Translations under genes and position numbers: made by a program
Source: Candidatus Syntropharchaeum sp.
GTDB taxonomy: Archaea; Halobacteriota; Syntropharchaeia; Alkanophagales; Methanospirareceae
Length of the DNA: 12,112 nucleotides
Direction of reading: 5' to 3'
Assembly (NCBI GenBank): GCA_016782355.1
Contig: JADHYP010000025.1
Coordinates: forward strand, 1-12,112
Shown here: positions 157 to 12,112 of the stretch, in pieces
Layout of the letters: every line of letters starts with the position of its first letter
How positions within the stretch are numbered: the stretch's first letter is position 1
Notes under the pieces: generated by a model
The model's database searches: none
What the model was told of the DNA's origin: nothing
The model's input: the letters and a program-made list of their open reading frames with translations, nothing else

Positions 157-1218
157 TTAACCTCCAACTCCAGCACCAACTGCTGTTTCGAACTTTTCGT
201 GCTTCAACTTCACTGCTTTGCTTATTCCCTTCTTATCAACGTCGTCTCTCGAGAAATCAATCAAATCTAAAAGTTTCTCACCACGCTCAGACCTCACTAT
301 TATGGTTGAATATCCATCTTCGCTACCCACTGAGCCAACGGAGATGTCTGCAAGCCAAGCTGCGAAATCATCGCAATACCGACAATTCTCTCTCACTGCC
401 TCATCCAGTTCCGCTACTTTTGTCTTATACGTCTTGCCATCCGCCGTAACCACGTATTTACCTTTGGTTATCTGTATTTTAGAGGCAGAGGCGAGGTCAA
501 CGCCTAACAGCTCCTTTGTCTTCTTCACAAGTTTATCATGGTAAAAGCTCTCAAAACAGAATAGTCCAATGGCAGTGATTTCTATCTGAGGCACATCTTT
601 CAGCAAAACTGACTGTATCTTCCTCACCGCCCTTATCTCGCATGGCGTCCCGACGACTGCTATTTTTCTTTTACCGCTTTTCACCGCCTCCCCTATCTTC
701 GATACCATCGGGCATTGCACATATTTCGTGCCCTTCGCTTTTTCTATTTCATCTACATGCTCTGCTATTTTTGCACTTGCATTGAAGCCATCTTCTCTAT
801 TTGCCACAATAACGCAATCAAACAGTTCATTCCCCATTCCCGCTGTTAGCATAGAAGTAACAATGCCACCGTCTTGCCCCTCTATCGCAGTTTTACCTGC
901 GATTAACTCCTTATAGATGCCTAAGTGTTCATCTCTCTCTTTTATGCCTTCCGAATCCATAAATTTCTTCTCTAATCCTTCTATATCTGTTTCCGTCATC
1001 GGGCACACGTCATAGCAGGTTCCATTCTCGCTACATTTCAGCACACCCTCTTTATCCAGCGGGCACTCATCTTTTAGTATTGGCACCTCTCTCGTCGCAT
1101 CGAGTTCCAGCTCGATATGCTCACAAAAAGAAGCACAGGCTCCACAATAAGTGCACAGATTTCTGTCAATTATCTCCTGCTTTAGCCCTTCAAATCCGTT
1201 GCTCTTTTTTGAGACCAT
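157..1218 (-). CDS. frhB: Coenzyme F420 hydrogenase/dehydrogenase beta subunit (FrhB-like)
   Basis: FrhB-family flavo-iron-sulfur protein (353 aa) that in known members passes electrons between F420 and Fe-S partners. The N-terminus carries a CxxCxxCxxxC ferredoxin motif (Cys22, 25, 28, 32) and a second Cys set (Cys52, 62, 68, 72). The core has family motifs: GQDGG, VGTPCEIRAV, and a CRYCDDF...ADISVGSVG segment near the C-terminus. The frame stays open to 1338, but the ATG at 1218 is chosen: it lies 2 bp after the hdrA stop with an AGGGGT site, and the longer version would overlap hdrA by about 40 codons and lose family similarity. No Ni-Fe hydrogenase subunits are visible, so it probably serves as the F420 module of the HdrA-MetF complex rather than of a hydrogenase. 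The cytoplasmic F420 role is from the family; the partner choice is inferred from the operon. Confidence 0.9.
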   Translation of the reverse strand: MVSKKSNGFEGLKQEIIDRNLCTYCGACASFCEHIELELDATREVPILKDECPLDKEGVLKCSENGTCYDVCPMTETDIEGLEKKFMDSEGIKERDEHLGIYKELIAGKTAIEGQDGGIVTSMLTAGMGNELFDCVIVANREDGFNASAKIAEHVDEIEKAKGTKYVQCPMVSKIGEAVKSGKRKIAVVGTPCEIRAVRKIQSVLLKDVPQIEITAIGLFCFESFYHDKLVKKTKELLGVDLASASKIQITKGKYVVTADGKTYKTKVAELDEAVRENCRYCDDFAAWLADISVGSVGSEDGYSTIIVRSERGEKLLDLIDFSRDDVDKKGISKAVKLKHEKFETAVGAGVGG

Positions 1219-1220
1219 TC

Positions 1221-3173
1221 TTACATACCCCTGCTTAACAAGCCCTCTATCTGCGCAAATACCTGCCTGTCCATGTAATGCCTCACGCTCATTGCTCCTG
1301 ACGGACAAGTAGTTGAACAGGAGCCACAACCCTTGCAAAGCACTTCGTTCACCTCCATTACACGCTTCTCCTCGTCAAAACTCAGTGCTTCATAAGCACA
1401 TATCATCTCACAACTACGGCAGCCTACGCAAATTGCCTCATCCACGTTCGCAGTTAGCGGTTCTATCTCTACTTCGCCTTTCATCAAAGGAATGGAAGCG
1501 CGAGCCGCAGCCGCGCAAGCCTGAGCAACACTGTCCGGAATGTCTTTTGGAGACTGACAGCAACCAGCTAAGAAGATTCCACCTGTGGGCGTGTCCACCG
1601 GCTGAAGTTTCTGATGCGTCTCCATAAAGAAACCGTCTGCACGCTGTGAGATTCTGAGCATTCTTGCAAACTCTTTCGCATCGCTCCTCGGTGTTGCACC
1701 AGTTGCAAGCACCACCAAATCGGCTTCAAATCCCCTCACACCACTTGAATCTTCTACGTTTACAATTACCCTATCGCTATCGCACCTTTCAGTCCATATC
1801 TTCGCATCTGTGTTCTTCCTGACATATTTAATGCCTTCTTCCCTGGCACGGTTGTAGAACTCCTCAAAACCCTTTCCAAAAGCCCTCGCATCGGTATAAA
1901 GAACGGTAATATTCGCATCTGGTATGTGCTCTCTGGTGAGCAATGCGTGCTTCGCGGTATACATGCAACAGAACCGGGAGCAGTATTCATTACCTATCTC
2001 CACATCCCTCGACCCAACGCATTGAATGAAGACCACGTCCTTCGGCTCCTTACCGTTTATTACAATCTCGCCCCCTGTGGGACCTGAGGAGTTTGTCAAT
2101 CGCTCAAATTCCAAGCCTGTGATTACGTCAGGAAACTGTTTATAGCCCAGTTCGGGCTTCTTTACCGGGTCAAATACGTCATAGCCGGTTGCAGCAATTA
2201 TAACACCGGCTTCTAACTCTAACTCCTCTTCTCTTTGCTCATAAATTATCGCTTCCGCTTCACATACCACCTCGCACAGGCCACATCCCATACATCTGTC
2301 CCGCTCTAAGGTATAAACAAGGGGAACAGCCTGCGGAAACGGCACATAAGCCGCCTTTCTTCCCGATAAGCCGAGCTCGAACTCGTTGGTGATGGTCACG
2401 GGGCATACCTTTGTGCATTCACCACATCCCGTGCATTTTTCTTCATCCACATATCTTGCTTTTTTCTTTACTCTCACCTTGAAATTACCTATGTAGCCTT
2501 CTACGCTCTCCACCTCCGCATAAGTTATCAATTCTATGTTCTTATGCCTTGCTACATCCACCATCTTCGGCGTGAGGATGCATGCCGAGCAGTCAAGTGT
2601 GGGGAAAGTCTTGTCGAGTTGCGCCATGTGCCCCCCGATAGAGGGCTCCTTCTCCACTAAATAGACCTTGAATCCCTTATCAGCGACATTGAGAGCCGCA
2701 AACATGCCGGAGACACCACCCCCAACCACCACACACGCTGGTATCACCCCAACTTTCATGCGCTCCAGAGGCTCGAGCAGCGAAGCCCTTGCAACTGCGC
2801 CACGAACCAAATCCTTCGCCTTCTCCGTGGCTTTGCCCTTATCGGTATGAACCCAGGCACAGTGCTCTCTGATGTTTACCATCTCGAACAGGTAAGCGTT
2901 CAAGCCCGCCTCCTCTACAACCTTTCTGAACGTCGGTTCGTGCATACGAGGCGAGCATGATGCCACTATTACCCTGTTCAGCCCACATTCTTTTATGTCA
3001 TTTCGTATCATCTCCTGCCCCGGGTCTGAGCACGTGTATAAGTAGTCCCTTGCAATTACGACACCGGGCAATGAGGATGCGAACTTCGCAACTCCCGCGG
3101 AGTCCACTATCGCCGCTATGTTCACACCGCAGTGGCAAATATAGACACCTATCTTCACTTCTTCGCCTCTCAT
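1221..3173 (-). CDS. hdrA: CoB-CoM heterodisulfide reductase subunit A-like flavoprotein
   Basis: Full-length HdrA (650 aa, normal for the family), an FAD protein with several [4Fe-4S] clusters that routes or bifurcates electrons. In order: an N-terminal Cys domain (ICHC at 12-15, YTC near 48, ASCSPR at 71-76); the FAD-binding GGGVSGM at 151-157; the IGGHMAQLDKTFPTLDCSAC segment at 179-198; ferredoxin motifs at 247-257 and 294-304; the IQCVGSRD and YCSRFCCMYTAKHA motifs typical of HdrA; and two C-terminal CxxCxxCxxxC motifs at 582-592 and 613-623. The ATG at 3173 has a GGAGG site 11 bp after the metF stop. No hdrB or hdrC is visible, so this HdrA is unlikely to act here as part of a classical CoB-CoM heterodisulfide reductase. 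Between metF and frhB, an electron-transfer hub between a methylene-tetrahydropterin reductase and F420 is more likely. Confidence 0.95.
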   Translation of the reverse strand: MRGEEVKIGVYICHCGVNIAAIVDSAGVAKFASSLPGVVIARDYLYTCSDPGQEMIRNDIKECGLNRVIVASCSPRMHEPTFRKVVEEAGLNAYLFEMVNIREHCAWVHTDKGKATEKAKDLVRGAVARASLLEPLERMKVGVIPACVVVGGGVSGMFAALNVADKGFKVYLVEKEPSIGGHMAQLDKTFPTLDCSACILTPKMVDVARHKNIELITYAEVESVEGYIGNFKVRVKKKARYVDEEKCTGCGECTKVCPVTITNEFELGLSGRKAAYVPFPQAVPLVYTLERDRCMGCGLCEVVCEAEAIIYEQREEELELEAGVIIAATGYDVFDPVKKPELGYKQFPDVITGLEFERLTNSSGPTGGEIVINGKEPKDVVFIQCVGSRDVEIGNEYCSRFCCMYTAKHALLTREHIPDANITVLYTDARAFGKGFEEFYNRAREEGIKYVRKNTDAKIWTERCDSDRVIVNVEDSSGVRGFEADLVVLATGATPRSDAKEFARMLRISQRADGFFMETHQKLQPVDTPTGGIFLAGCCQSPKDIPDSVAQACAAAARASIPLMKGEVEIEPLTANVDEAICVGCRSCEMICAYEALSFDEEKRVMEVNEVLCKGCGSCSTTCPSGAMSVRHYMDRQVFAQIEGLLSRGM

Positions 3174-3184
3174 TTCCTCCTTCC

Positions 3185-4114
3185 TTATCCTTCCCCTCTA
3201 ACCCTTCCTATTAGCTCTCTTACCATTACCTCGTAGCCAACAGCCATGACATGCACGCCCTTTGCCTCTGATTTCTTTATGTCCCGGACAAAGTTCTCGA
3301 AGTACTCCAAATTTATCTCCATGTATTTCTCCTTTCTCTGCTTCTTGTCCGAGATTTCAGTAACTTTCCTAAATGTCTCAAGCAATTCCTTGGGCACGGA
3401 AACTCCGGGGATATTTTTATCGAAATAATCTGCAACGCCATAGTTCTTCATCGGGAATATCCCGATAATCACCGGAACCTTTATACCGTATTGGTCGTAA
3501 ACCTCGAACAGTCGGTCAACTTTCTCCATCTCGTAGATGACCTGTGTCTGCGCAAATTCGGCACCCGCAACCTCCTTCCTCTTTAACTTCATTACCTCCG
3601 CCTCAAGAGGGTCCGCATTTGGATTCACTGCAACGCCGACGTGTAATTTCGGCGGTTCGTGTATCGGCTTCTCTGCGAGGTCGACCCCCTCATCCACCAT
3701 CCTCCTTATCATATACGTGAGTAATGCAGAATCGAGGTCGCAAACTGACTTCGCACCGGGATTATCGCCAAGGGATACGTGGTCGCCAGTGAGCGCGAGA
3801 ATATTCTTCAAGCCGAGAGCAGCGGCGCCAAGAACGTCGCCAGTCAAAGCAAGTCTGTTACGATCTGAACACCTGAGTTGATAGACTACTTCCATTCCTG
3901 CGTCCCTCTGCACCACGTAGGATGCGACAAGGCTGCTCATGTAAGCCATTGACTGCGGGTTATCCGTCACGTTGCACGCAACTGCGTATCCAACCAGGGG
4001 CTTTGCACCTTCCACAAGTTCGGTCAAATCAGTCGTCTTCTCAGGCTCCAGTTCTCCGGTGAAAACAAATTTGCCATTCAAAAGTTCCTGCATCAAATTG
4101 CTATACGCTTTCAT
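3185..4114 (-). CDS. metF: Methylenetetrahydrofolate reductase-type MetF
   Basis: MetF-family TIM-barrel reductase (309 aa) interconverting methylene- and methyl-tetrahydropterin (H4F or H4MPT). Family marks are the GELEPEK strand with acidic residues at the N-terminus (residues 20-26), VTDNPQS, the YQLRCSDRNRLAL segment, LALTGD, the FAQTQ motif and PVIIGIFPM. A GTG at 4123 is possible, but the ATG at 4114 fits better: GGAGGTGA lies 5 nt upstream, and that ribosome site would leave no spacer for the GTG. The start is 1 bp past the metV stop, so the two are translationally coupled. An archaeon with F420 chemistry would be expected to use Mer for this step; a MetF beside hdrA and frhB suggests replacement of Mer, as described for ANME-1. 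The direction (oxidative in methanotrophy, reductive otherwise) cannot be read from the sequence. Confidence 0.92.
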   Translation of the reverse strand: MKAYSNLMQELLNGKFVFTGELEPEKTTDLTELVEGAKPLVGYAVACNVTDNPQSMAYMSSLVASYVVQRDAGMEVVYQLRCSDRNRLALTGDVLGAAALGLKNILALTGDHVSLGDNPGAKSVCDLDSALLTYMIRRMVDEGVDLAEKPIHEPPKLHVGVAVNPNADPLEAEVMKLKRKEVAGAEFAQTQVIYEMEKVDRLFEVYDQYGIKVPVIIGIFPMKNYGVADYFDKNIPGVSVPKELLETFRKVTEISDKKQRKEKYMEINLEYFENFVRDIKKSEAKGVHVMAVGYEVMVRELIGRVRGEG

Positions 4115-4115
4115 C

Positions 4116-4811
4116 TCATTCACCTCCTCCTGAATACTTAACGCCTCCTTTTAAGTCCCTCGGTGACTGCGAAATCCGGTTGTCACGCATAAGCCTGAAC
4201 TGCAAGAACTGGTCTAACTTTTCAAGCTCTTTCAGCTTATTGTAAATCAAAATCCACGCACAATCGTTCTCATAGCCTCCAACCTCGCATTTACCTTCTA
4301 CCTGCCCACCACAGGGTCCATTCAAAAGTCCTTTCGCACATCTCGTTATCGGACATACACCACCCGTCTTGTCGAGAATGCAATCGCCACATGCACTACA
4401 CCGCTCGTGAAGGTCCCCCATCTCACGGTCCTGCATACCTATGAACTTCGTGTTCACCGCAGGGAGAACGAGCTTCTCAGAAAAAACTTCCGCCACGGTT
4501 TGAACGCCTGCACCACATGCCATGCTTAACACCGCATCGTAACCCTCAATACTGCCCTCAAGCGCTTCCCGGACAATCTCTTTATCGCACTGTCTGAGAA
4601 CAGTAGACGCTTCTATCTTTAAATCGCCCTCCTTATTCTCTCCTTTCGTCTTTTTCCCCATCCTGAGCATGGAGGAAAGCACCTCAGCTTGCTTCTCTCC
4701 ACCGACCTGGTAAATACCTGAGCATCCATCACAGCCTAAGACAAGCATCCTATCGCTGTCTTTAACCATATCGATTATATCTTCCAGGGGTTTTTGTTCT
4801 ACCACTATCAC
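4116..4811 (-). CDS. metV: MetV-like zinc/Fe-S partner of methylenetetrahydrofolate reductase
   Basis: Cys-rich MetV-family protein (231 aa), the usual partner of MetF in acetogens and several archaea, proposed to link MetF to an Fe-S electron source. The N-terminal half has a GCDGC motif (Cys27, Cys30), Cys75 in RQC and Cys99 in MACGAG. The C-terminal half has the dense cluster Cys138, 141, 144, 153, 158, 167, 175 and 184, including a GPCGG motif. Translation begins at GTG 4811 with an AGGTGG site 5 nt upstream; no ATG in frame fits. It stops 1 bp before metF. The gap to the 174-aa gene upstream is only 29 bp, so a separate promoter would have to lie inside that gene or in an A-rich stretch around 4847-4857. 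Confidence 0.87.
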   Translation of the reverse strand: MIVVEQKPLEDIIDMVKDSDRMLVLGCDGCSGIYQVGGEKQAEVLSSMLRMGKKTKGENKEGDLKIEASTVLRQCDKEIVREALEGSIEGYDAVLSMACGAGVQTVAEVFSEKLVLPAVNTKFIGMQDREMGDLHERCSACGDCILDKTGGVCPITRCAKGLLNGPCGGQVEGKCEVGGYENDCAWILIYNKLKELEKLDQFLQFRLMRDNRISQSPRDLKGGVKYSGGGE

Positions 4812-4840
4812 TTACACCACCTCTCTTTCATCTTCCATCC

Positions 4841-5365
4841 CTATCCTATTTTTTTATCTCGTTCGGGCACAGAATTCGTGATAACAAGCCGATTTATTGC
4901 GAGCAGCGTTGCTTTTGCATCTGCACGTGTGCAGGCGCTTAACACCTTCTTTAGCACATTACCGTCCCAAGCACCCTTCATGAGTCGCATGAAGGCTGCC
5001 TTTTCTACTTCGCTGAGCCTCACGTCACCCTCCGCAATAATAGAGAGAAAAGCTTCGCCTAACTCTTCCTGCGTCTCTTTGTCAAGCGACAGTATGTCGT
5101 CAAACCGGCTTGTTATCTCGAAGAGGGCATCAATGTCCACCAGTTCTGCTTCGTAGAGAGTAGAAAAAGGCACCAGGTAGAGTTTGTTGCTGCGCACCTC
5201 AATAAGGAACTTTCGCACCTCATGGAGGTCAACGCCCATCTCTTTAAGCAGTTCAATCTCCTTGCTGCCGAAATAAATGGAGACGCCTCTTTTATCGCCC
5301 TTCTCATGGACATTGACGACGAGTGTCCCCCCGCCTTTCTTTTCCCCCTTTGCCTTCCGTGCCAT
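4841..5365 (-). CDS. Two-domain small protein of unknown function, parent of the local paralog family
   Basis: Protein of 174 aa that I do not recognise. Two parts can be seen: a basic N-terminus (MARKAKGEKK), then an alpha/beta segment at about 14-75 with an RGVSIYF strand and a KLYLVPF strand, and a helical segment at about 92-160 (QEELGEAFLSIIAEGDVRLS, FMRLMKGAW). Each part has a separate paralog nearby: the N-part matches the 81-aa protein at 6845-7090 and the C-part the 87-aa protein at 6369-6632. The ATG at 5365 is chosen over an in-frame GTG at 5392 because the GTG would lie at or upstream of the transcription start predicted from the TATA box near 5402, and because the 87-aa gene's upstream region conserves this ATG. 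It is divergent from the AAA+ ATPase with a shared 98-bp promoter region. A DNA-binding or adaptor role is possible but unproven. Confidence 0.8.
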   Translation of the reverse strand: MARKAKGEKKGGGTLVVNVHEKGDKRGVSIYFGSKEIELLKEMGVDLHEVRKFLIEVRSNKLYLVPFSTLYEAELVDIDALFEITSRFDDILSLDKETQEELGEAFLSIIAEGDVRLSEVEKAAFMRLMKGAWDGNVLKKVLSACTRADAKATLLAINRLVITNSVPERDKKIG

Positions 5366-5410
5366 TTGTGTCTTCAGTGTAATATATGTCACAGGTGATA
5401 TATAAATCTT
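5366..5410 (-). promoter_or_regulatory. Promoter/operator A of the 174-aa gene (shared motif)
   Basis: Read on the minus strand there is a TATA box (GATTTATATATC, centred near 5402), then CACCTG, then CATATATTA, then GACAC centred near 5370, two bases before the ATG. The same parts recur in the same order at 6716-6757 and 8614-8662. The TATA-to-GACAC distance is 32 bp here and at 6716-6757. The leader would be about 10-15 nt with no clear Shine-Dalgarno site. Confidence 0.65.
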
Positions 5411-5427
5411 TTGAAATTTTTAAGAAA

Positions 5428-5438
5428 AGATTTATGGA
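5428..5438 (+). promoter_or_regulatory. TATA-like box for the AAA+ ATPase gene
   Basis: GATTTATGG follows an A-rich stretch (AAGAAAA) about 27-35 nt before the ATG at 5464. A start of transcription about 25 nt downstream would give an almost leaderless mRNA, in keeping with the lack of a Shine-Dalgarno site before this gene. Confidence 0.45.
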
Positions 5439-5463
5439 TGCATTCCAAAAATATACTTAAAAG

Positions 5464-6348
5464 ATGAAAAGAACCACCTTTGCTGACGTCGGCAATCTCG
5501 AAGAGCTAAAAAAGGGAATAAGGCTCTCCATTATTTATCCCCTGAATCGCCCTGACCTTTATGAACTCTACAAGCGGGGAATAAAGAGCAGCATCATTCT
5601 TTACGGTCCCCCAGGCTGTGGAAAGACTCTGCTCGCAAGAGCAACTGCGGGCGAAGTGGATGCGAATTTTTCCAACGTAAAGATACCTGACCTGCTGAGC
5701 AAATGGTATGGAGAAACCGACAGGAACATACAGCGTATCTTTAAAGAGGCGAGAAATAATGCGCCGTCCATTCTTTTTTTTGATGAAGTTGATGGTATTG
5801 GCTCGCACAAAGATACGGAACATCACGAAAGAAGAATTCTGGATACCTTTCTTACAGAATTGGACGGGTTCGAGGACCGTGGGGACGTAATGATTCTCGC
5901 TGCTACGAACGCACCCTGGAACATTGACCCGGCATTAATGCGCCCCGGCAGATTTGACAAACTTTTCTTCGTCCCGCCGCCTGACTTCAAAGCAAGGGTC
6001 GAAATTTTCAAAATCCATCTGAGGGAGCGACCTGTTGCTGAAGACTGTGACCTGAAAGAGCTTGCGAGACTCACCGAAACATATTCGGGCGCTGACATAC
6101 GAGAGGTCTGTAACGAAGCTGCAATGTTCCCTTTAGAGGAAGCGATACAGGGAAAACCTTCGAGAGATATTTACATGGAAGATTTACTGGAAGCAGTAAA
6201 AAAAGTAAGGTCCTCTCTCCCTTACTGGCAAAGGATTGCAAAATTGCGAATTGCCGAGAGGAGGATGGAGGATTTCTTCCCCGAGATTTTCGAATACTCG
6301 CAGAAACTGGAGGAACGAATAAAAGAAAGAATCTCAGGTTATGTCTAA
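5464..6348 (+). CDS. Single-domain AAA+ ATPase (CDC48/classic clade)
   Basis: Classic-clade AAA ATPase of 294 aa with one complete ATPase module and no N-terminal substrate domain. Visible parts: FADVGNLEELK lead-in (6-16), Walker A GPPGCGKT (48-55), pore-loop-like KWYGE (80-84), Walker B ILFFDE (103-108), sensor-1 ATN (147-149), arginine fingers in RPGRFDK (Arg160, Arg163), and sensor-2 SGAD (208-211). The tail (from about 255) is basic and helical and replaces the second ATPase ring of CDC48. Such proteins form hexamers that remodel or unfold partners using ATP. All catalytic residues are present, so it should be active. It diverges from the 174-aa gene and converges on the 87-aa paralog, so those small proteins are candidate adaptors or substrates. 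The substrate cannot be read from the sequence. Confidence 0.92.
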   Translation: MKRTTFADVGNLEELKKGIRLSIIYPLNRPDLYELYKRGIKSSIILYGPPGCGKTLLARATAGEVDANFSNVKIPDLLSKWYGETDRNIQRIFKEARNNAPSILFFDEVDGIGSHKDTEHHERRILDTFLTELDGFEDRGDVMILAATNAPWNIDPALMRPGRFDKLFFVPPPDFKARVEIFKIHLRERPVAEDCDLKELARLTETYSGADIREVCNEAAMFPLEEAIQGKPSRDIYMEDLLEAVKKVRSSLPYWQRIAKLRIAERRMEDFFPEIFEYSQKLEERIKERISGYV

Positions 6349-6361
6349 AAAAAGAAAAAAA
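6347..6361 (-). terminator. Oligo-T terminator for the 87-aa gene
   Basis: On the minus strand, two runs of seven T separated by a C follow the stop of the 87-aa gene by about 8 nt. Archaeal RNA polymerase stops at such T-tracts. The tract lies at the convergent junction with the AAA+ gene, overlapping its stop codon. Confidence 0.5.
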
Positions 6362-6368
6362 GAGGGAA

Positions 6369-6632
6369 TTAGTATCCACGTAATATCTCGGTTGTCTTCG
6401 AGGGATTGATGCGCATGGCAGTCTTTATTACCTTCCTGAAAATGTCCTTCGTATGGTGCCCCTTTATCAAAGCCATGAATTCGCTTACCTCTCGGGGATT
6501 GAGTTCAACCCCTTTCTCCACAACCACCTCGAGAAGCTCGTCGCCTATTTCCCTCTTCTCCTCATCCGGTAGCTCTGCAATCCTCTCAACCTCCCTCTCC
6601 TCTTCTCTAACCATTTCCATTTCGTATTCCAT
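6369..6632 (-). CDS. Small helical protein, paralog of the C-terminal half of the 174-aa protein
   Basis: Protein of 87 aa with no recognised family. After a very acidic start (MEYEMEMVREEE), residues of about 20-84 follow the C-terminal domain of the 174-aa protein: DEEKREIGDELLEVVVEKG against KETQEELGEAFLSIIAEGD, then VSEFMALIKG against KAAFMRLMKG, then a DIFRKVI / NVLKKVL helix. It lacks the N-terminal domain, whose first residues survive only as an 8-codon open frame upstream (6689-6715). The ATG at 6632 has a perfect GGAGGTGA site 7 nt upstream. It runs convergently with the AAA+ gene and ends in a T-tract. It probably keeps the interaction function of the C-domain alone; that is inference. 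Confidence 0.78.
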   Translation of the reverse strand: MEYEMEMVREEEREVERIAELPDEEKREIGDELLEVVVEKGVELNPREVSEFMALIKGHHTKDIFRKVIKTAMRINPSKTTEILRGY

Positions 6633-6688
6633 TTCCCTTTCACCTCCTATTTTTATCCTTTTGGGGATACAGCCTTCGCCTCACCTTT

Positions 6689-6715
6689 TTATCCCACCCG
6701 TGCCTTTCGTGACAT
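6689..6715 (-). pseudogene. Remnant of the lost N-terminal domain, or an 8-codon leader ORF
   Basis: Reads MSRKARVG then stop, matching the MARKAKG start of the 174-aa protein, with the ATG at the same distance from the shared promoter motif. The rest of the N-terminal domain is missing and translation restarts at 6632. It is either debris of a deleted domain or a short upstream ORF that now regulates the 87-aa gene. Confidence 0.55.
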
Positions 6716-6757
6716 TGGTGTCCCCAACATAATATATGGCGCAGGTGCTTTATAAAG
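6716..6757 (-). promoter_or_regulatory. Promoter/operator B of the 87-aa gene (shared motif)
   Basis: On the minus strand: CTTTATAAAG (centre near 6752), CACCTG, CATATATTA, GACACC (centre near 6720), then ATG two bases later. Order and the 32-bp TATA-to-GACAC spacing equal those before the 174-aa gene. The region is more conserved than much of the downstream coding sequence, which supports a protein-binding site as well as a core promoter. Confidence 0.65.
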
Positions 6758-6844
6758 TTTTCGGTAAAAGTATTTCATGTATGTTTCATCAATATGATAT
6801 AGTTGTAGCTGTTCTATTTGAGATAAGAAAGGAGAAGAGACAAA

Positions 6845-7090
6845 ATGGCTGATGAAGAGCCAGGAGGGAAAGAGAAGAATATTATAGAGCTTATAGCTTC
6901 TGTTCAAAGAGCCGGGAATGAAAGGGGAAAGCGAATTTATTTTGACAGTAAGAGCATGGAGGAGATAAAGAAGAAATGCGGCGAAGACTTCTTCTTGCTC
7001 ACCGAAAGGACTTTACTTGCTTTTATTGACCCCTCTGAGGAGAAGATCACGCTCAGCCCTCTCAAGGGCGTCTATAAGAAGTACCTTTAA
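6845..7090 (+). CDS. Small protein, paralog of the N-terminal half of the 174-aa protein
   Basis: Protein of 81 aa, unrecognised. It matches the N-terminal domain of the 174-aa protein: ERGKRIYFDSKSMEEIKK (27-44) against KRGVSIYFGSKEIELLKE, then TLLAFIDPSEEKITLSPLK against FLIEVRSNKLYLVPFS, and a VY/LY near the end. It therefore supplies alone the half that the 87-aa protein lacks. The ATG at 6845 follows an AAAGGAGAAGAG site with good spacing. Its last 78 nt overlap, antisense, the end of the 58-aa gene at 7013-7189. The two genes converge, so their mRNAs would be complementary over that stretch. A fragment of its 3' end recurs at 8701-8790. Confidence 0.72.
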   Translation: MADEEPGGKEKNIIELIASVQRAGNERGKRIYFDSKSMEEIKKKCGEDFFLLTERTLLAFIDPSEEKITLSPLKGVYKKYL

Positions 7091-7189
7091 TTTCTCCGCC
7101 TGCTCCTTCGTCAGCTCCACGTCTACCCTACCAAACGTGATGATGATGTTGCTACCCACCATTACCTGCACATCTATTTCCATCTCCAT
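7013..7189 (-). CDS. 58-aa conserved small protein, copy 1
   Basis: Short gene starting at ATG 7189 with an AAGGTGAT site, 12 bp after the GvpD-like ATPase stop, so probably in the same operon. The product has a beta-rich start (MEMEIDVQVMVGSNIIITFG) and a charged helix (VELTKEQAEKLKVLLIDALE). The main evidence that it is real is copy 2 at 8713-8889: same length, 53 of 58 residues identical, and in the first 40 codons about six silent changes against two amino-acid changes. That pattern is expected of a selected protein on this strand. The last 26 codons (stop included) lie antisense to the 81-aa gene. I recognise no family; a partner or regulator of the adjacent ATPase is a guess from position. 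Confidence 0.75.
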   Translation of the reverse strand: MEMEIDVQVMVGSNIIITFGRVDVELTKEQAEKLKVLLIDALERAERDLLLRGVNKSK

Positions 7190-7201
7190 CCTTTATCACC
7201 T

Positions 7202-8587
7202 TTACACAAAAGAAGTTAGCTTTATCCTGAGGGTATCATCAGTGACAACATTCTCCAGGCAATGTAGTTTGGTCTCAGGGCGATCGCAATAAAGGATAAC
7301 ACTCTTATGAAGTACGGTCAACTTCAGGTATGTTGATGACATGTGAATAAGTTCCCTGCCCAATTGGAGCCCGGGCGTCATTCCAAATGCACCTACATTC
7401 CCCGCATCCCTCATATCTGTCATCAACCGGGATAAGAGTCCCACCATTTCACCAAGTTTGCCCCGTTCTTTCAACTGATATGGATACTCTAACATATCCA
7501 CTCCGATAATAACCATGACTGGTGGCTCCAAGCTGGAAACGAAATCTATGAATTTGGAGAAATCTGACTTCATCAAGTCTCCTTTCAATATTCTCACGTT
7601 CTCTCTCTCATCTTCCTTCTTCTCTGAACCTATCTCGAAGACCGTGAAAAACTTATTATAATCCTCTTCGCTTACAAAAGGCAGTATCCCCCTTCTCAAT
7701 CTCCTCTCATCCCAGCCGCAACAGGGAATACATACACAATTATTCCCTTGCTGTATGCTGTTTATAATCATGTGAGCGATAAGGGACTGGTAACCCAAAA
7801 TAGAGATGTTATCCCCGGCTTCTATAATATTAAAGCTTCCCTTTTTAAAGCCCCCACCCAGGATCTTATCCAGGTCAGAGATCCCTGTAGACAGGTGCGT
7901 TTCAGTATTTGGCACGAGTTCCGCTCTTCTTTGCTTCTCTATTCCCCTCCGCTCGAAAGGTTTGAAAGATTGAAATTCACCACCCTTTAACGTGAACGGG
8001 TATTTATGCTGACTTATCTCAATGCCCCGCAGCTTCTTTATCTCAATCTCTCTCGCCCTTCGATAATCTATTTCGTAATTCCTTAACACCACTATTCCAT
8101 CCACTAAATAATCCAGTGGAGTTACTTCCTTGCTTTCCGTCACGAGAATCAGGCTTATCCTGCTTTCCCTTACGAGCTCTGCTATCGCAGCCTGCAGCGA
8201 TACAACCCTCTTGCTGTCTTCAATTTGTGCGGTCATCGCATCCCAGCTGTCAACCACGATAGTTGCTGGCTTTTTTATCCCACGGAGTCTTGAATACAGG
8301 ACTTCTGGAAATGTCTGAAGTCCAAACTGTGCGTCTGCCGAGATATAAAGCTTTGTCGCATCTATTACGTTCAATGGCAGGATGCACTCATTAAGCCAGG
8401 GGAACTGCTTGTAGAGGGAGTTAGGGGATACCCTCGTTGAAATATAGAGCGCATCAGCGCCACCAAACTGTGCAATTGCAGAGAGCGCAAGTATCGTCTT
8501 CCCCGTTCCTGGCAAGCCTTTTATCAGCAGTGAAAATCCCTTTTCTGAGGACAATGCCTCATCCAGTTCAGGTAATACCTTTGTCAT
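7202..8587 (-). CDS. GvpD/KaiC-like tandem RecA-fold ATPase
   Basis: Protein of 461 aa with two RecA/KaiC-type domains. Domain 1 (about 1-200) has Walker A GLPGTGKT (24-31) and Walker B ATIVVD (108-113), so it should bind and hydrolyse ATP. Domain 2 begins at about 233 with the KaiC-typical STGISDLDKILGGGFKKG, but its P-loop position reads EAGDNISI (256-263) with no GKT, so it is probably a non-catalytic partner domain. The layout resembles archaeal KaiC-like proteins and GvpD, a gas-vesicle regulator with an N-terminal P-loop; no gas-vesicle structural gene is in the window. The ATG at 8587 has a GAGGG site. The promoter shares the motif found before the 174- and 87-aa genes, and 58-aa genes lie on both sides. 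A regulatory or signalling ATPase is most likely. Confidence 0.82.
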   Translation of the reverse strand: MTKVLPELDEALSSEKGFSLLIKGLPGTGKTILALSAIAQFGGADALYISTRVSPNSLYKQFPWLNECILPLNVIDATKLYISADAQFGLQTFPEVLYSRLRGIKKPATIVVDSWDAMTAQIEDSKRVVSLQAAIAELVRESRISLILVTESKEVTPLDYLVDGIVVLRNYEIDYRRAREIEIKKLRGIEISQHKYPFTLKGGEFQSFKPFERRGIEKQRRAELVPNTETHLSTGISDLDKILGGGFKKGSFNIIEAGDNISILGYQSLIAHMIINSIQQGNNCVCIPCCGWDERRLRRGILPFVSEEDYNKFFTVFEIGSEKKEDERENVRILKGDLMKSDFSKFIDFVSSLEPPVMVIIGVDMLEYPYQLKERGKLGEMVGLLSRLMTDMRDAGNVGAFGMTPGLQLGRELIHMSSTYLKLTVLHKSVILYCDRPETKLHCLENVVTDDTLRIKLTSFV

Positions 8588-8613
8588 TATTATCCCTCTT
8601 TTTTGCTTTTTAT

Positions 8614-8662
8614 GTAACTGGTGTCTTTTATGTACTATATATAACCAGTGTCTTATATATCT
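8614..8662 (-). promoter_or_regulatory. Promoter/operator C of the GvpD-like gene (shared motif)
   Basis: On the minus strand: a GATATATAAG TATA box (centre near 8656), ACACTGGT, TATATAGTA, then GACACCAGT (GACAC centre near 8622), the same order as at 5366-5410 and 6716-6757, with a TATA-to-GACAC spacing of 34 bp. ACTGGT (8617-8622) and ACCAGT (8644-8649) are inverted copies, which suits a dimeric regulator. The leader to the ATG would be about 40 nt. Confidence 0.6.
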
Positions 8663-8700
8663 TTCTGGTAACCGTAATATTTATTCAATCTCTTCCTTTT

Positions 8701-8790
8701 ACAGAAAAGACTTTACTTGCTTTTATTCACTTCTCTGAGGAGAGAATCACGCTCACTTCTCTCAAGTGCGTCTATAAGAAGTGCCTTTAA
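8701..8790 (+). pseudogene. Duplicated 3' fragment of the 81-aa gene
   Basis: The plus strand reads TEKTLLAFIHFSEERITLTS and on to the same stop as the 81-aa gene (TERTLLAFIDPSEEKITLSP...), but no start or upstream two-thirds is present. It was carried along with the duplication that made the second 58-aa gene, which overlaps it antisense. It is probably not expressed as a protein. Confidence 0.6.
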
Positions 8791-8889
8791 CTTCTCTGCC
8801 TGCTCCTTCGTCAGTTCTACGTCTACCCTGCCAAACGTGATGATGATGTTGCTGCCCACCATTACCTGCACATCTATTTCCAGCTCCAT
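8713..8889 (-). CDS. 58-aa conserved small protein, copy 2
   Basis: Second copy of the 58-aa gene, upstream of the GvpD-like ATPase; a 125-bp stretch with promoter C separates it from that gene. It differs from copy 1 at five residues (M3L, V36A, A45S, L49S, G53E), while several other codons differ silently. ATG 8889 has a GAGGT site 5 nt upstream, unrelated to the site used by copy 1, so both copies kept a working ribosome site with different upstream DNA. A TATA-like box lies at 8911-8920. Four of the five replacements fall in the C-terminal helix. Function unknown. Confidence 0.75.
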   Translation of the reverse strand: MELEIDVQVMVGSNIIITFGRVDVELTKEQAEKLKALLIDALERSERDSLLREVNKSK

Positions 8890-9127: not shown

Positions 9128-10087
9128 ATGGGCACAAGAGAGTCCTTCGAAAAGGTAATAATGGATTGGCGAACTTTAGCAGTGATAGCGGTGGTGACGA
9201 TTTTATGGCGAACGTTCATAAGCCTTGACAAAGAGATAGCGCTCTGGGAAAGTGTCTGCTCAGGTGTTGTTCTTCTCATATTGGGCTGGTTTATCTTCGG
9301 TTATCTCTATCATCTGTCCAGGACAGAGACGAGCTGGTTAATTTCGAATAAGCTGGCTCAGGGAATTGCCATTAGCGTAAGCGCCTTAAACGTTTACGTT
9401 CTTGTTTACTATGCGATGAGATGGTTCCGATTAATGACTGAAACAGAAGTTTATGTGCCGCGGGATTTTCTTCTCAGGGATGCGAAATACGCAATGTTAG
9501 TGCTGGCGTATTGTGGCATAATATGGGCGACGGGGCATCTAAGAAAGATGCACGATAATTACATGTTGGTAACCGAGAAAATGCCGGAGATGCGTAAACC
9601 GGGGGCGCAAGAAGCATTATTCAAAATAATAACTGATGAACGGTCGGTGATAGTGATATTAGGCGTAGTATTTTTATGGCGGTCATTCGTAAGTTTCGAC
9701 AAACAAATAGTTCTTTGGGAATGTATGTGCTCCGGGATTGCTCTTTTCATAATGGGTTGGGTTCTCTTCGGTTACATAAGTTCACTGACAGTGAGAGCGG
9801 TCAGACCAAGCGTTGCAAAGATCTATCAGGGGTTTGCCTTTGCGCTATTCGCTGTAAACATGTATGCTCTCGTTTACTACGGAATGAGGTGGTATGGATT
9901 AATATACTTTGCAGGTGCAGAAGAAGCGTTAGTACCGCTGGATTTTATATTCCGGGATGTGAGATATTTTATGTTAGTGATATTTTATTGCACGGCAATA
10001 GTGCTATCGAAGTATTTAGAAAAAGCATCTGAGGAGTGCGAATACTTGATTAAGAAAGGAGAAAAGACGCCAGAGAAATCCCAATGA
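9128..10087 (+). CDS. Multi-pass membrane protein with internal duplication, paralog 1
   Basis: Integral membrane protein of 319 aa with about eight helices, family unrecognised. It is built from two copies of one unit, residues 11-148 and 167-308. Helices fall near 15-32, 41-62, 78-98 and 119-138, then 172-190, 199-220, 236-256 and 277-296. Both units keep LWR before helix 2, WE..CSG at its start, GW..FGY at its end, NVY/NMY with YYAMRW or YYGMRW in helix 3, and a PxDF..RD.(R/K)Y motif before helix 4, which carries YC. Conserved Arg, Glu and Asp next to membrane segments suggest an ion or substrate path or a ligand site, but this is inference. The last codons and stop lie inside a repeat (10076-10092), so the natural C-terminus may have been altered. 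Confidence 0.82.
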   Translation: MGTRESFEKVIMDWRTLAVIAVVTILWRTFISLDKEIALWESVCSGVVLLILGWFIFGYLYHLSRTETSWLISNKLAQGIAISVSALNVYVLVYYAMRWFRLMTETEVYVPRDFLLRDAKYAMLVLAYCGIIWATGHLRKMHDNYMLVTEKMPEMRKPGAQEALFKIITDERSVIVILGVVFLWRSFVSFDKQIVLWECMCSGIALFIMGWVLFGYISSLTVRAVRPSVAKIYQGFAFALFAVNMYALVYYGMRWYGLIYFAGAEEALVPLDFIFRDVRYFMLVIFYCTAIVLSKYLEKASEECEYLIKKGEKTPEKSQ

Positions 10088-10277
10088 CAAATACTACCAA
10101 ATCCCAAGTAAATCCCAATGACAAATCCCAAAAAGGAACCATAAGATTTCACAAGATGGACACAGAAGATAAAAATGAAGAAGTGAAAAAAATCTCGTGG
10201 AAATCTGGGTGTTCTTGCGGTTAAAAAGGGTGCAAGTTGGGTAGTATTGGGATTTGGGATTTGTTTGGTAGTATTGG
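10076..10277. repeat. AAATCCCAA repeat element without a gene
   Basis: An exact 17-bp direct repeat (AAATCCCAATGACAAAT) lies at 10076-10092 and 10110-10126. CCAAATCCCAA at 10097-10107 is inverted at 10247-10257, and AATACTACC at 10090-10098 is inverted to GGTAGTATT at 10240 and 10267. The unit therefore has inverted ends and fills the gap between the two membrane-protein genes. The roughly 110-bp centre has no supported gene. Its ends resemble those of the four-helix-bundle element at 11252-11536. Confidence 0.6.
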
Positions 10278-10305
10278 TATATATTGAGATTTGGAGTTTT
10301 CTAAG

Positions 10306-11253
10306 ATGAGCATGAGAAAATTCATATTCAAGGCGATAACCGATGAACGAGTGTTAATAGTAATAGCGGGTATAGCTTTCTTATGGCGAGTAGTCGTAAG
10401 CTCTGATGAAAAAATAACCTTCTGGGAAAGTGCATGCTCGGCTGTAACTCTTTTCATAATTGGCTGGGTCCTCTTCTGGTATATGTACTCAATGAGCGTG
10501 AAACCGACGGATTGGTCGGTATCGAATAGGATTTATTGCGGCATCTCCCTTTGCCTTATCGTCCTGAACGTTTATATTGCGATTTATTATGGAATGAGAT
10601 GGTCTGGATTACTGCGTGTAGAAGTTTCCGCGCCGCTGGATTTCATTTACAGAGACGTGCGATATGTGCTCTTCGTGATGTATTACTGCGTAGTAATTGG
10701 CTCGGCTCGGTATCTAAGAGGGATACACGAGGATTACAGACTGCTAATCAAAGAAATACCAAAGAAACGTGCAAATTGCATAAAAAAAGCCATATTCAAC
10801 GTGATGACGCATGAACGAACTTTAGCGGTGATAATAGCAGCAGCGATTTTATGGCGAGTAGCTATAAGCACTGACAACGTTATAACCTTCTGGGAAAGCA
10901 CGTGCTCCGGTATTTCGCTTATCATAATTGGCTGGTTCCTCTTCGGATACCTCTGTGCATTGTCCGTGAAGGTGAAACACAAGCCGGATTTGACAAAAGT
11001 CATCCAGCGTGTAGCCCTTGGTCTATGCGCGATAAACGTTTATGCCGTTTTTTACTATGGGATGAGGTGGTATGAGCTGATAGGCAGAGTCATGGGGGAG
11101 ATAACGGAAACGTACGTGTCGCAGCCGCTGGACATTGTCTTCAGGGACATAAGATATGTCATGTTAGTGATTTTTTATTGCGCCGCAATATTATTGGCAA
11201 AGCATTTGGAAAAGGCATACGAGGATTATACCGTGCCAGCCCGGAAAGGGTAA
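10306..11253 (+). CDS. Multi-pass membrane protein with internal duplication, paralog 2
   Basis: Tandem paralog of the preceding gene, 315 aa, same plan of two 4-helix units (about 9-147 and 165-307). The same marks recur: LWR at 26-28 and 182-184, WE..CS at 40-45 and 196-201, GW near 53 and 209, NVY with YYGMRW near 88-99 and 243-254, a PLD...RD.RY motif at 110-120 and 274-284, and YC in helix 4. The second unit is closer to the second unit of paralog 1 in its ending (LVIFYC..AI, then a short linker and YLEKA or HLEKA), so the internal duplication came before the gene duplication. The ATG at 10306 is chosen (GGAG 9 nt upstream); a TTG at 10291 is in frame. The stop codon lies at the edge of a second AAATCCTAA repeat. 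Confidence 0.82.
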   Translation: MSMRKFIFKAITDERVLIVIAGIAFLWRVVVSSDEKITFWESACSAVTLFIIGWVLFWYMYSMSVKPTDWSVSNRIYCGISLCLIVLNVYIAIYYGMRWSGLLRVEVSAPLDFIYRDVRYVLFVMYYCVVIGSARYLRGIHEDYRLLIKEIPKKRANCIKKAIFNVMTHERTLAVIIAAAILWRVAISTDNVITFWESTCSGISLIIIGWFLFGYLCALSVKVKHKPDLTKVIQRVALGLCAINVYAVFYYGMRWYELIGRVMGEITETYVSQPLDIVFRDIRYVMLVIFYCAAILLAKHLEKAYEDYTVPARKG

Positions 11254-11536
11254 ATCCTAAATCCTAATTTCTAAATCCTAATCAATACCAAAATTCAAAA
11301 TTATAATATCAAAACTTATTTCATTCGCTTCGATATAATTTGCGCCCACAGACCCAGAAGATCGGACAAGTTGTTTTATTACTTCAATATTAGGTATTGT
11401 TCTTGGAAGGTTTTTGACAAACTTTATTACCCCTTTTGCGAATTTTAAAGTTCGTTCTTCTAAATCATACTGTTTTGAATTTCTAATTTCGGTCATTTGA
11501 ATTTGTTTAGAGTTTCGGATTTAGTTTTTAGGATTT
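11252..11536. mobile_element. Repeat-bounded four-helix-bundle (S23-type) element, decayed
   Basis: AAATCCTAA occurs at 11252, 11259 and 11273, and its inverse TTAGGATTT at 11528-11536, bounding a 285-bp unit that contains the truncated four-helix-bundle gene. Such AT-rich repeats around this gene type are familiar from many genomes. No transposase is present, so how it moves is unknown. Confidence 0.5.
11278..11496 (-). pseudogene. Truncated four-helix-bundle protein (23S-IVS/S23 family)
   Basis: An open frame of 72 aa whose first 58 residues match the start of the four-helix-bundle family: YDLEERTLKFAKGVIKFVKNLPRT, then QLVRSSGSVGANYIEANE, the family's most typical motif. Full-length members are about 115-125 aa. 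After EANE the frame runs into ISFDIIILNFGID, which is translated from the AT-rich flanking repeat, so the second half is lost by deletion. The family occurs as ORFs inside 23S rRNA intervening sequences and as stand-alone repeat-linked genes; the related Avd protein helps diversity-generating retroelements, but no reverse transcriptase is seen here. It is probably non-functional. Confidence 0.75.
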
Positions 11537-11934: not shown

Positions 11935-12112
11935 TTATTTGACACTCGCTCTCAGTATGTCACTTGCAGTTAATATCCCTATGGGAACACCGTAAGCGGG
12001 GCTTAGAGAAAGTATCAATAACCTGTGAATGTTCAAATCCCGCATAATATCCGCGGCTTTTTTTATCGTCATTTCCGCGTCTATCGTCCTCACAAAGGTG
12101 GACATAACCTCC
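11935..12112 (-). CDS. CBS-domain protein, C-terminal part (partial)
   Basis: Minus-strand frame entering from the right edge and ending at a TAA (11935-11937). The visible 58-59 residues have the second-half pattern of a CBS domain: a VMSTFVRTIDAEMTIKKAAD start, IMRDLNIHRLLIL, a short loop, then GILTASDILRASVK. CBS domains come in pairs and bind adenosyl nucleotides or SAM to sense energy or metabolite state. What the domain is attached to lies outside the window. Confidence 0.8.
   Translation of the reverse strand, partial: EVMSTFVRTIDAEMTIKKAADIMRDLNIHRLLILSLSPAYGVPIGILTASDILRASVK

Follow-up and report, generated by a model that had tools for sequence, protein, structure and literature searches.

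The window analysed here is the whole of contig JADHYP010000025.1 (12,112 bases), from a Candidatus Syntropharchaeum genome that is 61% complete. It carries a two-domain protein of 174 amino acids (aa), called A174 below, together with an 81-aa protein (N81) and an 87-aa protein (C87). On the minus strand A174 is followed, after a gap of 29 bp, by metV, metF, hdrA and an frhB-like gene, and therefore A174 is the first cistron of this row. An AAA+ ATPase is divergent from A174, C87 is convergent to the ATPase, and then come N81 on the plus strand and, on the minus strand, a 58-aa protein (s58a) and a KaiC/GvpD-like ATPase. The open reading frames of the trio and of the AAA+ ATPase beside it were found where the initial annotation had placed them. 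The features, with their positions in the window, are as follows.

4841..5365, minus: A174, two-domain protein; ATG at 5365, N-domain at about residues 13-72 and C-domain at about 82-160
5366..5398, minus: 33-nt element between the A174 start, which it adjoins, and a TTTATATA stretch that is read as a TATA-like box
5464..6348, plus: AAA+ ATPase with a single Cdc48-type ring domain; Walker A and B motifs, pore-loop-like KWYGE, RPGRFD
6369..6632, minus: C87, free C-domain
6640..6727, minus: C87 leader, a candidate structured RNA or inverted-repeat element, with the 8-codon frame MSRKARVG
6716..6748, minus: 33-nt promoter element of C87
6845..7090, plus: N81, free N-domain; its last 78 bp overlap s58a
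7013..7189, minus: s58a, 58-aa protein; a relative of its domain is fused to the C-domain in Syntropharchaeales
7202..8587, minus: KaiC/GvpD-like ATPase, a frequent neighbour of N81 and s58
8619..8651, minus: promoter element upstream of the KaiC-like gene, a weaker copy
4116..4811, minus: metV, methylenetetrahydrofolate reductase (MTHFR) C-terminal family; a second metV type, full-length only in genomes with the C-domain
3185..4123, minus: metF, MTHFR family, under the NCBIfam equivalog cut-offs
1221..3173, minus: hdrA-like gene, under the NCBIfam cut-offs (best HdrA2, 887.7 of 1100 bits)
157..1338, minus: frhB-like gene with domains of the F420 hydrogenase beta family; start codon uncertain, frame overlapping hdrA

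When the genome of the window was searched with A174 at E values up to 10, only three places were recovered: A174 itself, C87 (E 5e-5, A174 residues 85-153) and N81 (E 0.003, residues 7-76). In profile-profile comparisons, the A174 family (13 rows) matched the N81 family (16 rows) over 60 columns with a score of 51.2 (E 1.9e-8) and the C87 family (14 rows) over 79 columns with a score of 87.7 (E 9.9e-15). N81 aligned to residues 13-72 of A174 and C87 to residues 82-160, and N81 and C87 did not match each other (7 columns, score 13.2). As controls, 300 column-shuffled profiles were scored for each half, giving 12.4 ± 2.6 (maximum 23.9) for N81 and 11.6 ± 2.1 (maximum 22.5) for C87, and the reversed profiles scored 11.5 and 10.5, respectively. 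Both match scores lie far above all shuffles, and chance is therefore excluded. The initial annotation had read A174 as a two-domain protein of which N81 is the N-half only and C87 the C-half only, and the comparison with shuffled profiles that it called for bore this out.

By these scores the N-domain of A174 and N81 pass as one domain family (51.2 against a shuffle maximum of 23.9). The C-domain of A174, C87, an N-terminal extension of the methylene-tetrahydromethanopterin (H4MPT) reductase Mer and the C-terminal part of an s58 fusion (s58-C) pass as another. C87 found the Mer extensions by tblastn at E values from 2.9e-7 to 2.8e-5, and A174 found the s58-C region of locus L030 at 4e-6; a profile of all C-domain variants also retrieved every variant, but it was built from them and is not independent. 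AlphaFold2 predicted the C-domain of A174 as a confident helical bundle (block-mean predicted local distance difference test score (pLDDT) of at least 91 for residues 91-160). For the N-region the same strand order, beta-beta-alpha-beta-beta, was obtained in both A174 and N81 at low confidence, with a mean pLDDT of 59.9 for N81 and values under 50 for A174 residues 1-27, which include the first strand. The structural comparison proposed earlier, run for the N half only, thus agreed in strand order at low confidence.

The distribution of these proteins was surveyed in 58 genomes of one archaeal class, 51 of them in the family of the window, for which the name ANME-1 is used; a family-mate is named Methanophagales, the ANME-1 order, and the window's order-mates are named Alkanophagales. 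N81 was found in 26 of the 58 genomes and A174 in seven, all of which have N81. C87 was 87 aa long in all 12 proteins of a database search, the window's own included. N81 and C87 are conserved and, as had been claimed, intact genes.

No Pfam or NCBIfam family above cut-off and no convincing solved structure was found by sequence for either domain. A candidate assignment of the C-domain as a PUF (Pumilio) repeat was rejected, since its E value of 4.8e-7 was a sum over repeats and the best single stretch had an i-Evalue of 14. Weak fold matches of the N-domain include MazE, AbrB and SpoVT. Pfam PF04014 matched none of 31 N-domain rows. Against a profile of 30 AbrB-type domains of the class, N81 scored 12.1, which 12 of 60 shuffles reached, N81 together with the A174 N-domain 11.8 (7/60), and whole A174 16.3 (1/60); the A174 N-domain alone scored 16.9 (E 0.009) against AbrB-type profiles, reached by 4 of 200 shuffles. 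Because the fold matches are weak and the profile signal, itself weak, is seen for the A174 N-domain only, the N-domain was not filed as AbrB-like, and such a fold is an unproven lead. If it were real, the genes could form a toxin-antitoxin-like or selfish cassette, in which the N-domain serves as an antidote of the AbrB/MazE type and the cassette, patchy in its distribution, hitch-hikes by metabolic genes. The patchiness in ANME-1 (4 of 51 genomes), the identity of some fold matches and the result for the A174 N-domain fit this idea. We regard it as very improbable, given that N81 does no better than shuffles, that the neighbours are alike in three taxonomic families, that no toxin-like partner was seen and that one viral-contig scan confirmed nothing.

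The C-domain, a module that has no name so far, was found here in a single archaeal class only. Its profile matched 10 of the 58 genomes, nine convincingly (the match in G008 is weak and was excluded), and it occurs in several combinations: behind the N-domain (A174), alone, in front of Mer and behind an s58-like domain, the N-domain also being found alone. Exactly two copies, A174 and C87, are present in each of four ANME-1 genomes (G000, G016, G029 and G060). Two Alkanophagales genomes and a genome of another family of the class (G038, 64% complete) have three each, namely A174, a C-domain alone and a Mer fusion; the two Syntropharchaeales genomes (G040 and G042) have one and two, s58-fused.

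In all nine genomes a copy lies beside, or is fused to, a methylene-H4MPT reductase. The copy is beside metV-metF-hdrA in the four ANME-1 and the two Syntropharchaeales genomes, and it is fused to Mer, in one gene row with Mer, in the other three (G036, G037 and G038). A174 stands directly ahead of metV-metF-hdrA-frhB in all four ANME-1 cases, and in Syntropharchaeales a gene row of the KaiC-like gene and the s58-C fusion is divergent from metV-metF-hdrA. Full-length metV of this type (at least 57% identity over at least 226 residues) was found in exactly the six genomes with metV-metF-hdrA; Alkanophagales and G041 have copies at 49-50%, and the other ANME-1 copies are at 38-46% among the matches listed.

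In the fused proteins the C-domain makes up about 97 N-terminal residues of Mer (L026 2194-3474, L027 392-1675, L028 5730-7007). The Mer equivalog cut-off of TIGR03555 (348.7 bits) was passed with 424.1 bits for L026, 392.3 for L028 and 426.4 for G037. Of the four Mers above this cut-off in the 58 genomes, three carry the C-domain; the fourth, a plain Mer of 510.7 bits in G062 (L109), belongs to a genome with no C-domain match and is the sole ANME-1 protein above the cut-off among 51 genomes. In the assembly of Candidatus Alkanophaga volatiphilum that was examined, the C-domain-fused Mer is the only Mer above the cut-off, and the mer of this organism is treated as canonical in the accessible text of PMC10322722, which makes no mention of the extension. 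In L026 and L027 the Mer part is immediately preceded by a GTG codon, and a second, internal start is therefore possible. A literature search gave nothing relevant on these module combinations, with subscription papers mostly outside the search and absence thus unproven.

The upstream DNA of A174 and C87 is alike, with a TATA-like box followed by the 33-nt element. A matrix built from six A174 promoters gave as its next best sites in the window the C87 promoter (27.8) and the KaiC-like promoter (20.4), compared with a null maximum of 14.2 in 30 dinucleotide shuffles, and a matrix from four C87 promoters recovered the A174 promoter with 27.3 (null maximum 19.3). The two promoters are thus alike, in line with the initial annotation, and the codons MSRKARVG that it had described ahead of C87 are present, at the end of the open reading frame 6689-6907, and belong to a genuine similarity. 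Their interpretation as the remnant of a lost N-domain did not hold up equally well. The C87 leader, with the same type of promoter, is also found ahead of a gene for a small membrane protein in ANME-1 genomes that have no cassette (G002 with two copies, G003, G023 and G026), and in 5 of 5 cases an antiporter subunit D-like gene lies downstream on the same strand. Both antiporter genes of G002, the two compared with NCBIfam, score above the cut-off of NF009310. Because the leader also precedes these Na+/H+ antiporter-type operons, MSRKARVG is read as part of a shared leader and need not be an N-domain remnant. The small leader frame varies among loci in length and start codon, and the longer one in G029 could instead be read as a remnant of A174.

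Two further leaders, in G014 (E 1.3e-14) and on G023:C34 (E 5.5e-12), were recovered with a covariance model of six leaders. Six leaders folded better than shuffles (z from -1.9 to -5.0), compared with a z of -0.2 for the A174 start; covariation is modest, and no Rfam match at E up to 1 was obtained in window positions 4700-8700. In ANME-1 such a promoter with a possibly structured leader was noted at window positions 6640-6727 and in L032, L035, L041, L042, L155 and L171. The small membrane protein behind the leader in L032 (6619-6894) and its relatives resembles the last ~80 residues of the adjacent antiporter D protein (46% over residues 543-618 for L032), and is another free copy of a neighbour's end.

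The homologous halves in one locus, the similar promoters and first codons of A174 and C87, and the G029 leader frame of 26 codons, which is readable as a decayed A174 start, would fit the explanation given in the initial annotation: the A174 gene was duplicated and one copy was split into N81 and C87. The homology, the intact genes, the promoters and the AAA+ neighbour stand, but an origin here by splitting of A174 is not supported by the C-domain tree (27 rows). In this unrooted tree ANME-1 C87 forms a group with the free-standing C-domain gene of Alkanophagales (92/97, not starred), and A174 of ANME-1 one with A174 of Alkanophagales (99/96, starred). Constraining A174 and C87 of ANME-1 together was 31 log units worse (approximately unbiased test, p-AU 0.021); the choice of this group followed inspection of the tree, and the program gives a warning about long branches. 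C87 thus joins the separate gene of Alkanophagales and not the A174 of its own lineage, which disfavours a recent event. N81 matches A174 in age and exceeds it in distribution, being present in 19 genomes without detected A174, many of them incomplete; it is 72-73% identical between the window and Alkanophagales and 28-35% identical to A174 N-domains. With the MSRKARVG codons in a leader common to antiporter operons, splitting retains only a slim chance, slimmer than that of the chance gene order discussed below.

From the grouping of C87 with the Alkanophagales gene, the separation of the C87 and N81 halves probably goes back to before the divergence of ANME-1 and Alkanophagales. Two Alkanophagales genomes hold all the pieces, with Mer, the C-domain gene and A174 on one strand, the ATPase and N81 on the other, and then s58 and the KaiC-like gene; the pieces therefore probably predate the same divergence. 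In G038, a 64%-complete genome, the neighbouring genes A174 and N81 are divergently oriented without an ATPase in between, and the ATPase may therefore have joined the A174-N81 pair later. In the deeper relative, Syntropharchaeales, the C-domain is fused behind an s58-like domain, and the N-domain was not detected in the class-genome survey. For this reason fusion is at least as likely as fission for the origin of A174. The trio looks like an old, reused regulatory kit, not like one gene recently split in two.

The AAA+ ATPase has its AAA domain at residues 44-171, without a large N-terminal domain, and shows the classical AAA features, with Walker A, Walker B, the arginine-finger region and the AAA lid (PF00004, E 7e-41; AAA_lid_3, E 1.6e-12). 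The motifs GPPGCGKT, FFDE and RPGRFD are invariant in five rows. It scored below the NCBIfam cut-offs for CDC48 (257.8 of 802.65 bits), PAN (236.8 of 500), FtsH (211.7 of 600) and CdvC (203.6 of 650). Following the suggestion that the trio and the ATPase be sought in related genomes, we found N81 in 7 of 7 A174 genomes and an ortholog of the ATPase (at least 76% identity) in 6 of 7, compared with none of the 51 others, where the next match is at 51%.

Based on the observed homology, module combinations, gene order, co-occurrence and common promoter element, we propose, with a probability of roughly 40%, that A174, N81, C87 and the ATPase are an old modular kit for regulation or assembly at the methyl/methylene-H4MPT reductase step of alkane-oxidising archaea; the biochemical roles are predicted from sequence. 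A174, as the first cistron of the reductase operon, would be its regulator or assembly adaptor. The C-domain may serve for docking or interaction, given that the Mer of Alkanophagales contains the same module, and the N-domain may be a second interaction or DNA-binding module. Free C87 and N81 would compete for the two binding faces of A174 and could tune it in this way, and the Cdc48-type ATPase would remodel the complex. The position between the TATA-like box and the start is where an archaeal repressor would act. Because A174, C87 and the KaiC-like gene have the common element there, they may form one regulon, possibly self-regulated, with a putative binder and a presumed direction of control.

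Several observations weigh against this proposal. The genomes are few, related and partly incomplete, and the counts are not independent events. The C87-promoter matrix gave the KaiC-like promoter only 16.2, under its null maximum of 19.3, and the matrices exclude the A174 promoter of G038, which by eye did not match the element. The KaiC-like gene was not found in the 64% of G038 that is present, and DNA binding by the N-domain is a prediction. Of the two C-domain copies in G042, one is flanked by frhB-like genes and a KaiC-like gene; its 7.7-kb contig carries no metV. G038 has a piece of metV at a contig end (57% over 127 residues), and the metV pattern is therefore not perfectly clean. The C-domain occurs without this ATPase in G038 and Syntropharchaeales, so the ATPase is not its sole partner.

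The same position of A174 directly before metV (4/4 ANME-1), the C-domain built into Mer in three genomes and a Cdc48-type ATPase with a pore-loop-like motif would also be expected if the proteins were purely an assembly or maturation kit, a chaperone and its adaptors that build or activate MetFV-HdrA-FrhB or Mer and have no role in transcription. This version leaves unexplained the common promoter element and the 19 genomes with N81 and no detected A174, and the one plain Mer of the class (G062) manages without the module; we think it rather unlikely, while far from negligible. The link to the reductase could otherwise be chance gene order, the small proteins having unrelated functions and merely travelling with the operon, since there are nine genomes only and one ancestral operon may be common to the six with metVF. 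That the same module stands by two unlike enzymes of one step, and is fused to one of them (Mer), makes this improbable. Taking the proposed regulatory or assembly kit further, it is conceivable, though still doubtful and a shade less so than assembly alone, that the C-domain represents a new regulatory or adaptor domain family that tracks the metabolic step and not the enzyme, by fusion to Mer or as first gene of MetFV-HdrA, and that it would act, driven by the ATPase and trimmed by the free domains, as a switch of methane/alkane oxidation flux.

The N81 and s58a genes, which lie on opposite strands, share 78 bp at their tail ends (7013-7090). The overlap with a near-complete s58 was found in 16 of 26 distinct N81 frames, Alkanophagales included, and measures exactly 78 bp in 15 and 96 bp in one; six of the remaining 10 keep only a piece of s58, and one of the 26 frames is interrupted. 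At window positions 8698-8889 there is a second s58 copy (8713-8889) with only an N81 end opposite (8698-8787), which is a duplicated overlapping pair with one partner decayed; similar cases are seen in G029 and G016. Further along, at 9128-11253, two membrane proteins with an internal repeat in each stand in tandem; in many ANME-1 loci this pair is found close to N81 or to the KaiC-like gene. A short frame at 11278-11496 resembles a 23S rRNA intervening-sequence protein (24.3 bits, short of the Pfam cut-off of 33.8), and another at 11935-12105 resembles a CBS domain (41.6 bits, above cut-off).

How ANME-1 run the step that is done by Mer in methanogens is an open question. According to the accessible parts of PMC9012536 and PMC10322722, MetF has been proposed as the Mer replacement in ANME-1, and electron re-entry into metabolism is left open there. 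A module shared by Mer and the MetFV-HdrA operon suggests a common control or assembly point, and it provides named, testable proteins for uncultured methane oxidisers.

Among known systems, the comparison of the N-domain with the SpoVT/AbrB/MazE swapped-hairpin fold involves models of low confidence, no match to PF04014 and profile similarity that is weak at best. The AAA+ ATPase resembles Cdc48/VCP- and PAN-type proteins in its AAA core and AAA lid, its best-scoring solved chains being VCP/Cdc48 and its best NCBIfam score that for CDC48, whereas it has one ring domain in 294 aa, lacks a large N-terminal domain and stays under the cut-offs. The gene at 7202-8587 has KaiC and GvpD P-loop matches above the Pfam cut-offs, like other KaiC/GvpD-like archaeal ATPases, but it is below the NCBIfam KaiC cut-offs listed and is a neighbour, not a member, of the trio. 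The Mer proteins of Alkanophagales and G038 pass the equivalog cut-offs (TIGR03555 / NF002619) over the full Mer part and differ from other Mers in the ~97 extra front residues, which are the C-domain. Finally, the part of PMC9012536 available to us describes a MetFV-HdrABC-MvhD cluster in Moorella and MetFV-HdrA-MvhD in Candidatus Syntrophoarchaeum, and the metV-metF-hdrA row here is like these, followed by an frhB-like gene, but with A174 preceding it. In the same part of that source, clustering of MetF with HdrA is stated to be absent from all its ANME-1 genomes; contrary to this, four ANME-1 genomes here have such a cluster, a second metV-metF-hdrA-frhB operon (window 157-4811; L023, L024 and L065) besides the usual, more distant metV.

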